A DNA stretch of 64,000 bases. Origin: Victivallis sp. Marseille-Q1083 (lineage in GTDB: Bacteria > Verrucomicrobiota > Lentisphaeria > Victivallales > Victivallaceae). The position numbers and the translations under genes are program-made. This document shows positions 37,824 through 40,944 of this stretch, one piece after another (within the stretch, counting starts at the first letter, position 1; every line of letters begins with the position of its first letter). The stretch covers positions 3,755,339 to 3,819,338 of the forward strand of contig NZ_CAHJXL010000001.1 of NCBI RefSeq assembly GCF_903645315.1, in the 5' to 3' direction. The notes beneath the pieces were generated by a model. That model saw only the letters and a list, made by a program, of their open reading frames with translations, was not told the origin of the DNA and made no database searches.

Positions 37824-38439
37824 ATGTTGCATGAAACTTTCGAATCGTCGAGAAATGTTCAGAAGATTCGGAAGTTTTTATTTTCAGAGTCGGATATTGT
37901 CGTTTTTTTGCAAATTGAGCATATTCCCCCTTTCCCCCGTTGTTGTTCGGCGAGCCGGGGACAGCTCTCCAAGGTTTTATTCCCAAGCGATGATTTTCGC
38001 AGCGATCAAGCGGAGGAGTTCCTGATTTGGACAAGCACTTGAAAGAGCAACATAAATTTTTCTGGTATTCCGCCGAATAATGGCACCGATTTTCACCAGG
38101 TATAAGCGAATGCTGCCGCAGGTAGCCTCGGCAAATTGAGTTCCTGTCAACAACAATGCCCGAAACCGTTCCATGAGAATATAAGCCAAACTTGAAAGCA
38201 GAAGCCGGAATTGATTTGCCGCAAAGTCATGGCAGCTCGTCCGATCAGCGAAAAGATCCAGCTGCTGTTCCTTGATCCTATTATGAAAAAGTCAAGAGAC
38301 TGACTCTTTCTTTGTTTGTATTTTTCCTGTTATTTGTTGTTATTTGCGAAACTCCGCCTCAAAGGGCAGAGGACTTCCATCTGTAAATATTTTTACAGTC
38401 TTCCAATTAAAGATTATCTTCTGGTTGCGGTTCGGGCAA

Positions 38440-38600
38440 AAATCGGACACTATTATTGACGACAACTCTTGAATGAATTCAAGGTTTCGCATTTTGCTGT
38501 TCCACTCTGAAATAGCACTCGCAAACTGTTTTACATGATCCCCTCGGATCAAGGAGCAAACGAACGACGTGCTAAAAAGAACCGAATTTCACAGTCACAG
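38440..38600 (-). ncRNA. Bridge RNA of the IS110-type element
   Basis: Read on the minus strand, the non-coding end contains in order: TCCTTGATCC (38555-38546), identical to the left target half; AAAACAG (38532-38526), the reverse complement of CT plus the right target half; ACAGCAA (38500-38494), 6 of 7 like the element's right end ATAGCAA; ATAATAG (38456-38450), the reverse complement of CT plus the element's left end. The first pair is enclosed by a stem GCACgTCG / CGAGTGC (38572-38565 with 38521-38515). The second pair surrounds a hairpin TTGAAT/ATTCAA. This is the loop order known from IS110-family bridge RNAs: target-binding loop, then donor-binding loop. RNA ends are approximate. Confidence 0.75.
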
Positions 38601-38629
38601 CAAACAGAATCTCCGAAACTACTTAAATC

Positions 38630-39679
38630 TTATTCACTTGCGGATACCATGTAATCACGTTCCTGGAGCCACACGGCCCGAAGCGCATAGAGCAATTTCT
38701 TGCCGATGATCGAAATAGCCCGTTGTGGACTGGCCCCCTTATGAAGCAAGGCTCCATATCTGGCCCGAATCTCCAGATTGTACGACACCGACCTCCACGC
38801 CGACTGGATCAGGATGGCATGCAGTTGCTTTTTCTTGCGATTCCCGGCGGATTTGACGGCCTCGTGTTCGCCGCTGCCGACCAACCTCGGTGCGAATCCC
38901 ACATACGACCTCAGCGAATCCTTGTCTTCAAAGCGCAGCAAGCCCCACAATTCGGCCTGCAGCATCACCGCCGTATGAAACCCGACGCCAGGTATACTCT
39001 GTAGATGCTTCTGTACTTTGTCGCGCTTCAAACGCTTCAGACACCGCCGTTCATCGCGGATCACATGCAGTTTCTCTTCTCTGAGAAAACGCAGTTCCCG
39101 CAACATGCTCTGCAAGGCATAATCGTAACGCTTTGCCGCGTCCGCATACATCATTTTCAAAGAACTTCCAGACCAACTTCCAAACTTCAACCCCATGAAA
39201 TTCAGGTGTCCTTTGATCCGGTTTTTGACCCTGGTTATATTGCCGGTCAGTTTCGTTTCACGTCTGACCAGGTTTCTCAATTCCAAATTATCTTCAGGCG
39301 GAATATAGATCCCTTCCAATGTCCGGTTCTCCAGTTCCCGCGCCAATTTTCGGCTGTCCACCGCATCGTTCTTGCGGTCGCGCTCCTTGCCGCTGGTCGG
39401 CACGTCCGCCGGGTTGATTACGATATTCTCAATCCCGAGCTCACACAATCGCCGGTGCGCCCAGAATCCGCTGAATCCTGCCTCGTAAACGCTCCGGTAC
39501 TCGGCGCCCGGATAGTTCATCTTCAGATACTTCGCCAACATCTCAGGGCTCGGATTCATGCTGAACTTGTCCAGTTCACGGTGGCAATGCCGCAAATTCA
39601 CCACCCAACTTTCCTTGTGCACATCAATTCCGACAAATATCACTTGACCTTCGAACGATACCGTGCTACATTTTCTCAT
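38630..39679 (-). CDS. IS110-family recombinase (transposase)
   Basis: A 349-residue DEDD recombinase that, by family knowledge, works with a bridge RNA to join donor and target. Start at MRKCSTVSF, with AAAAGGAG upstream. The N-terminal RuvC-like catalytic residues are D19 (VGIDVHKES), E66 (SVYEAGFSG), D105 and D108 (KNDAVD). The C-terminal Transposase_20 part has IPGVGFHTAVMLQAELWG (helix-hairpin-helix-like), YVGFAPRLVGSGE with the likely nucleophilic serine region, and KSAGNRKKKQLHAILIQSAW. It appears intact, so the element may be active. Confidence 0.9.
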   Translation of the reverse strand: MRKCSTVSFEGQVIFVGIDVHKESWVVNLRHCHRELDKFSMNPSPEMLAKYLKMNYPGAEYRSVYEAGFSGFWAHRRLCELGIENIVINPADVPTSGKERDRKNDAVDSRKLARELENRTLEGIYIPPEDNLELRNLVRRETKLTGNITRVKNRIKGHLNFMGLKFGSWSGSSLKMMYADAAKRYDYALQSMLRELRFLREEKLHVIRDERRCLKRLKRDKVQKHLQSIPGVGFHTAVMLQAELWGLLRFEDKDSLRSYVGFAPRLVGSGEHEAVKSAGNRKKKQLHAILIQSAWRSVSYNLEIRARYGALLHKGASPQRAISIIGKKLLYALRAVWLQERDYMVSASE

Positions 39680-40944
39680 GGCTGATGTCTCCTTTTGTGA
39701 TGTTTTAACTGTCTGCATGACTCTGTCCGTCAGAGCCGATGTCTTATTTTACAGTATCACATCTTTGAGAATCAGCCTCTTTCATTTCATAACCGCTACC
39801 TCATTCCTTTTTACCATAGCAACTGTTTTCCATCTCACCTCGGGCGCAATAGACTTTTTCATAAAGATATTGTCCATCATCATCAAGATTGGTGACGATA
39901 AAACGATTATTCGGTCCGGGGGAGTTGAATTCCGCTTTGGCAATCACCCGGCGCGGGTATTTCCAAGTTCCTGCCGCATATTCGAACTGAGTAAACAGTT
40001 TTGCTTTTTCATGTGTTTCGTTGTAAAGTGCTTCCGCTTTCACTTGAAGATCTTTTGATAATTCCAGCAAACGTGGATTTTTCGCCAATCCGACAATATA
40101 TTTGACCTCATTTTTATCACACCAGTTCAGCATTTTCTGCCGACAAAAGCCACTGTCTCCCCGGAAAATAATCTTAACCTTCGGCCATTTCTGCCGAAAG
40201 CGCTTTACCAGTAGCGAGAGAATCGCCCAGGCATGCTTGGCCGCATCAATTTTTGATGGACGCAAATAAGCCACAAGCAATTGATCCCCGCAGAAAACAT
40301 ACAACGGCAAAAAGCAATAGTGGTCATAATAGCCATGAAAAAAGCGATTTTCCTGCATCCCGTAAGTGAGGTCATCGGTAGCATCGAAATCAAGAATCAA
40401 TTCTCGAGGCGGCGTGGAAAAACTTTCGATAAAGAATTCGACAAACAATCGGCTCAAATCTACGCAAGCACGACGATCGATTCCATTTTCGAATCGACAT
40501 AAAGTGCTTGGAGTGGCGAGTTGACGATCACGACCGACAACAGTTTGAATCAGCGGATCAGTTCGCAATTCATGATGGTCATTGAGATCTTCATGGCCGG
40601 CAACCAAACCAAAAACTCGTTGACGAAGCATGCTCAGATAGGAATGCTCAACTTTTCCGGGCTGTCGAATATCAAAAGAATCCAGCAGGTTACCGGCGCG
40701 CCGGGTCAAACCGAGTTTGCGGTCGAATTCTTTCACAAAAAGCAACCCGCCGTCACTGCTGATATCTCCACCGGCGAAATTGAATTCAATTTTTCTGCTT
40801 TTCGGACCTTGAAAGACCGGAATCGAAACATTACATTTTGTCATTGGCAGACCTCGGCGTTATATTGTGATGTAAGATATTACAATATAATACGTTAGTC
40901 GAGAATCTGCCTCTTTGTTTTTGAAAATTTACGCAATATTCAGG

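Follow-up and report, generated by a model that had tools for sequence, protein, structure and literature searches.

What directs an IS110-family element into the middle of an IS1380 transposase gene, and which bases of its RNA read the target? The question is raised by a minus-strand element in the 64,000-nucleotide stretch of the Victivallis sp. Marseille-Q1083 genome analysed here (the window), for which a reading made from the DNA letters alone (the sequence-only reading) had proposed an IS110-type bridge RNA whose target loop, donor loop and four guides could be read against the insertion site. The comparisons described below uphold that proposal with one change: one of the four guides, the left target guide given as TCCTTGATCC, had been placed in the wrong register.

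The recombinase encoded by the element has the DEDD N-terminal domain and Transposase_20 C-terminal domain of the IS110 family (Pfam DEDD_Tnp_IS110, PF01548, and Transposase_20, PF02371, both above cut-off), scores 154 bits against NCBIfam NF033542 'IS110 family RNA-guided transposase' (cut-off 140), and by sequence has ISCro4 (E 1e-5) and IS621 (E 0.0015) as its closest PDB relatives. The frame is open upstream of the likely start (window 39679-39718), where relatives have stops; since L013 and L017 carry stop codons between both candidate starts, the listed ORF start 39718 is too early and 39679 is the likely start. About 350 bases of non-coding DNA lie 3' of the gene, and the RNA lies there, downstream of the recombinase gene as had been claimed. 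In this element, L017 and L103 a subterminal inverted repeat, TATG(N)TAAAAG, occupies the same position four bases in, and L101 has a shorter match; each element's match is weak when taken alone, being reached in 35-108 of 1000 shuffles. Empty IS1380 sites compared with the window junction reveal no target duplication beyond the shared core dinucleotide, and the non-coding RNA carries target and donor guides that match the target and the element ends. By these sequence features 38278-39822 is an IS110-family element of IS1111-like layout, an already known type of system. The coordinates of its parts are collected in Table 1.

Table 1. Features of the IS110-family element and its predicted bridge RNA, in window coordinates.
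Feature	Position	Strand	Basis or remark
IS110-family element	38278..39822	minus	1545 bp including one AG core copy at the right end; nine genomic copies, flanks, empty IS1380 sites
Left end with subterminal inverted repeat TATGGTAAAAAG	39806..39822	minus	Flank comparison, string location
Right end with subterminal inverted repeat (TATG..AAAAAG, other strand)	38278..38293	minus	Flank comparison, string location
Recombinase gene	38630..39679	minus	349 aa, start codon MRKC...
5' part of interrupted IS1380 transposase gene, left target half ...GAAAACAG	39823..40844	minus	NCBIfam NF033539, 296 bits; intact copies
Predicted bridge RNA, target-binding then donor-binding stem-loop	38450..38575	minus	Folds, consensus structure, pair counts on 5 RNAs; bounds are not transcript ends
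Outer stem of target loop, 5' arm AGCACGTCG	38565..38573	minus	Alignment consensus
Outer stem of target loop, 3' arm GCGAGTGCT	38514..38522	minus	Alignment consensus
Left target guide, best-fitting place, CGTTTGCTC + core CT	38552..38562	minus	Top summed match to nine right flanks; covariation in L013, L101, L103
Left guide of the sequence-only reading, TCCTTGATCC	38546..38555	minus	Unsupported as guide; spans the end of the best-fitting guide into the terminal hairpin
Target-loop terminal hairpin TGATCC-GAGG-GGATCA	38536..38551	minus	Folds, pair counts
Right target guide TAAAACAG, core AG	38526..38533	minus	7-8/8 match in each of nine copies
Left donor guide GAACAGCAA	38494..38502	minus	One mismatch to element end TTGCTATGG; LE/RNA covariation
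Donor-loop hairpin CTTGAATTCATTCAAG	38468..38483	minus	Folds, string location
Right donor guide AATAATAG, core AG	38450..38457	minus	Matches element end CATAATAG; RE/RNA covariation

The genome holds 43 matches to the interrupted IS1380 gene, and we fetched 30 of these for comparison of the insertion site. Because the site GAAAACAG-GATCAAGGA is unbroken in 29 of the 30, and the only other one is the window copy, the window junction with its shared AG/CT dinucleotide is exact. The insertion into an IS1380 transposase gene (NF033539) and its point at CT had both been read correctly, and all strings named in the sequence-only reading are present on the minus strand at the places it gave.

The element is present in nine genomic copies and a 135-base fragment (L011). 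Element positions 1246-1380 are identical in eight of the nine copies; L006 has one substitution there, which falls in the outer stem and leaves the guides unaltered, so that the guides are identical in all nine while the flanks differ. On the recombinase strand the left flank reads AACAG in 9/9 copies and AAAACAG in 7/9, which confirms the right target guide AAAACAG of the sequence-only reading, and the right flank reads GA in 9/9 and GAG in 8/9, the exception being the window copy. That reading had named identical guides beside unrelated flanks as evidence against itself, and eight more copies do have the same guides at sites elsewhere. Their sites share AAAACAG|GAG, not AAAACAG|GATCAAGGA; the TCCTTGATCC guide is therefore removed and the remaining guides are kept. 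The further claim that the guide explains a jump of one insertion sequence into another is weakened: 29 of the 30 IS1380 copies examined are empty, eight of the nine insertions lie elsewhere, and IS1380 offers one site of moderate fit (left guide 7/11, right guide 7/8). Apart from its flanks, the window copy differs from L002-L009 at element positions 880 and 914, where the other eight agree. Since the target holds AGGAG, we considered Shine-Dalgarno targeting by this element and found it unsupported, since an ATG that opens an ORF of 100 aa or more follows in only one of the nine copies.

To locate the left guide, each 11-base segment of the non-coding end was compared in turn with the nine right flanks (345 offsets). 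The best offset, CGTTTGCTCCT, sums to 65/99; the second, at 54, is the place proposed before (TCCTTGATCCG), and the next reaches 48. The best place is seven bases upstream on the RNA of the earlier one and ends in both core bases. A sum of 65 was reached in 11 of 2000 shuffled RNAs, and with left and right guides taken together in the right order the observed sum of 130 exceeded every one of 500 shuffles (highest 118). Copy by copy (L001, the window copy, to L009), matches at the best place number 7, 8, 8, 7, 8, 5, 8, 7 and 7 of 11, and those at the earlier place 10, 5, 6, 4, 6, 6, 9, 4 and 4 of 11. The former is best or tied best in 6/9 copies site by site; the earlier place fits better in L001 and L007, and in L006 neither is best. 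The left guide CGTTTGCTC-CT thus best fits the nine sites jointly. Individual matches in its own copies are modest (5-8/11), a point against this placement. In this model a full guide match is not needed, the right side of the target being nearly fixed and the left strict only by the core (GAG in 8/9) and loose beyond.

A folded architecture places these guides in the first of two stem-loops. Pair counts were made on five aligned RNAs (that of this element and those of L013, L017, L035 and L101; L103 is not in the alignment). In the outer stem of the target loop all cells of the ten pairs are paired and 4/10 pairs changed on both sides, so that the GCAC.GTCG/CGA.GTGC stem noted earlier is real; in the terminal hairpin 80.8% of cells are paired and 1/6 pairs changed on both sides. 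Standard pairs and the covariation score both exceeded all 500 shuffles, and RNAalifold, unprompted, returned the same two helices. Weaker controls were the number of pairs changed on both sides (26/500 shuffles) and the number of further pair types (172/500), and single-sequence folding gained only a little over shuffles (z -0.8 to -3). No Rfam family matched in the window at gathering thresholds.

A search of 78 genomes of the family at E 0.001 turned up relatives in 17, and searches at 1e-30 did so in 10 of 197 genomes of the class and 7 of 387 of a phylum sample; an RNA model built from five RNAs had matches in 8 of the 197 class genomes. A genome contig set contained close relatives at three loci, one of them complete, and a viral contig set contained none. 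In four relatives an RNA is present and both flanks can be used, although the right flank of L017 runs to just four bases. At the homologous places the left and right guides match 11/11 and 6/8 in L101 (46% aa identity), 8/11 and 8/8 in L103 (44% aa identity), 8/11 and 5/8 in L013, and 4/4 available and 7/8 in L017; the L103 left-guide match is tied with another offset, and the right junction of L013, which has one extra A before the core, was placed by eye. When RNAs and flanks of these four and the consensus site of the element were permuted, the matched sum of 73 was the best of 120 permutations (next 68). Left out of this test were L099, identical to L013 over the stretches shown; L018, L019 and L100 (left end, no RNA found) and L105 (right end, no RNA); L014, L015, L020, L102 and L104 (partial or distant); L111 (RNA-model match, no recognisable element) and L112 (target loop missing); and L113 and L117 (contig begins inside the RNA). 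L035, L109 and L116, which have an RNA and a right end and neither an intact recombinase nor a mapped left end, were scored apart. These degenerate relatives fit poorly on the left guide (3/11, 6/11 and 2/11, respectively), and with them added 61 of 5040 permutations score as high as the matched arrangement, or 126 of 5040 without the core. L109, L112 and L116 are RNA-model matches for which a protein search found no recombinase nearby, and may be either RNA remnants or non-autonomous elements.

The two copies that fit the earlier place better raise the prospect of a slipped register, in which the imperfect tandem heptamer TTGCTCC TTGATCC of the RNA is read in its first unit at most sites and in its second at a few, namely the window copy and perhaps L007. 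Two of the nine sites do match better seven bases downstream, and if a two-register bridge RNA existed it would be a natural system that broadens its own target range. However, the second register would require the terminal hairpin to be opened and matches just one core base, the difference at L007 is a single base, and the tandem repeat is absent from the relatives. Moreover, the two heptamers resemble each other closely enough that any site suited to one will in part suit the other, which accounts for some of the cross-matching. We consider use of both registers across the nine sites very unlikely, and give a slim chance to a two-register left guide by which the window copy in particular was placed with the second heptamer.

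Even less survives of the explanation that TCCTTGATCC is the left target guide, with the IS1380 gene as the element's intended target. Its match to the window flank, 10/11 against 7/11 for CGTTTGCTC-CT, is unusual for one flank, occurring in just 16 of 5000 Markov-shuffled RNAs, and it is also the better one in L007 (9/11 against 8/11); over all nine flanks a match of this type is about a 3% event. The nine-copy comparison contradicts it as a general guide, with 4-6/11 in the other seven copies, and the homologous place in the relatives has no specificity, 74 of 120 permutations doing equally well. The string has four bases in common with the best-fitting guide and then continues into the terminal hairpin, whose stem takes up 6 of its 10 bases, it matches one of the two core bases, and 29 of the 30 IS1380 copies examined are empty. 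We regard this explanation as highly improbable. That the recombinase protein itself recognises AAAACAG|GAG, with the RNA matches coincidental, would suit the weak left-guide matches of the element's own copies beyond the core-proximal bases, but is barely credible given that the flanks of L101 and L103 are wholly unlike this sequence and their own RNAs differ likewise at the homologous places.

RNA and element ends covary at the donor guides. For the left donor guide, a left end TTGCC goes with GGCAA in the RNA of L101, and TTGCT with AGCA(A/G) in this element, L013, L017 and L103; for the right, a right end ATAAT goes with ATAAT in the RNA of this element, L013 and L017, and ATAAC with ATAAC in L101, L103 and L109. 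Covariation at one position each thus supports the donor guides that had been read as AATAATAG and an imperfect ACAGCAA. The cores show a separate irregularity: the left junction of L006, L101 and L103 has AG as its core and the right one GG, and for L101 and L103 the final guide bases are CC (left guide) and AG (right guide). It is as if one junction retained the core of the target and the other that of the element.

With the left guide placed at CGTTTGCTC-CT, the non-coding RNA in the 3' end of the element very probably serves the DEDD recombinase, whose gene lies immediately upstream, as a bridge RNA (seekRNA). Of its two stem-loops, the first would carry the two target guides on the sides of an internal loop, with a short terminal hairpin between them; the left guide, 5'-CGUUUGCUC-CU-3', would pair with the recombinase strand at AG-GAGCAAACG, and the right guide, 5'-UAAAACAG-3', with the opposite strand. 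The donor guides of the second stem-loop would pair with the joined element ends, and the recombinase would join target and element at the shared AG/CT dinucleotide. The sequences themselves show the junction, the nine target sites, the place where the guide fits best, the covariation with relatives and the fold; we infer that the RNA is transcribed and bound by the recombinase, that a circular intermediate forms, and that the pairings take place.

A second IS110-family element, present in 18 copies (L051-L068), with 23% identity and a long non-coding region upstream, inserts at Shine-Dalgarno sequences. Its left flank reads AGGAG in 18/18 copies and AAAGGAG in 16/18, its right end restores GGGAG before the gene, and in 16/18 copies the right GGAG is followed at 4-12 bases by an ATG opening an ORF of 100 aa or more; such an ATG follows 3.3% of window positions, 10 of 86 AGGAG and 4 of 5 AAAGGAG. 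The leader of this element contains GGAAAGGAG, a candidate guide spelling a Shine-Dalgarno sequence. The second element is nested inside two of the nine copies of the first, L008 and L009, at the same place, the ribosome-binding site of the recombinase gene, and the outer flanks of the two copies differ; the two elements either travelled together or met at this site on two separate occasions. IS900 is another element that inserts beside ribosome-binding sites. The insertion of this second element at such sites may merit its own study; our literature searches, and the passages of PMC7823733 and PMC1525189 consulted, yielded no statement of IS110-family insertion at ribosome-binding sites.

Overall, the nine-copy element is an ordinary but unusually clear natural case, in that nine copies and retargeted relatives permit guide assignment without experiment, and it illustrates that a guide register can be misread from one insertion. 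Among known systems, it resembles the IS1111-group seekRNA elements ISEc11, ISPa11, ISKpn4 and ISPst6, as set out in the accessible text of PMC11187229, in its long non-coding region and RNA 3' of the transposase gene, in an RNA with one segment per target strand, in the length of the transposase (349 aa versus 330-350 aa) and, less clearly, in its putative short subterminal inverted repeats (7-17 bp in that group). On the RNA the guide complementary to the recombinase strand (left) comes before the right one, the same order as the segments complementary to the top and bottom strands there if the top strand is the transposase strand. Unlike that group, as far as the same text describes it, the inverted repeat here is short and imperfect, the C-terminal motif is GFAPRLVGSG (G--P----SG without the L) rather than GL-P----S(t)G, the target is different, and the protein is only distantly related to the sequences compared here. 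In the portion of PMC11187229 that lists targets, the IS110-family element ISEc21 is likewise RNA-guided with a target inside another transposase gene, of the IS3 family, but that gene is the listed target of ISEc21 whereas IS1380 is one of nine sites here.

The resemblance to IS621, as described in the available sections of PMC11208160, lies in a target loop followed by a donor loop, in a left and a right guide per loop placed in an internal loop, and in a CT core within guides that read both target strands; in IS621 the core is part of all four pairings, in line with the left guide assigned here, which ends in both core bases. The differences, within the same sections, are that the RNA of IS621 lies upstream of the recombinase and this one downstream, that the CT strand here is opposite to the recombinase strand, and that the right guide here is at least as long (7-8 bases with the core). 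The left-guide matches are also looser than the low mismatch tolerance reported for IS621 in that source. Away from the core, this natural downstream bridge RNA would tolerate loose pairing of the left guide.
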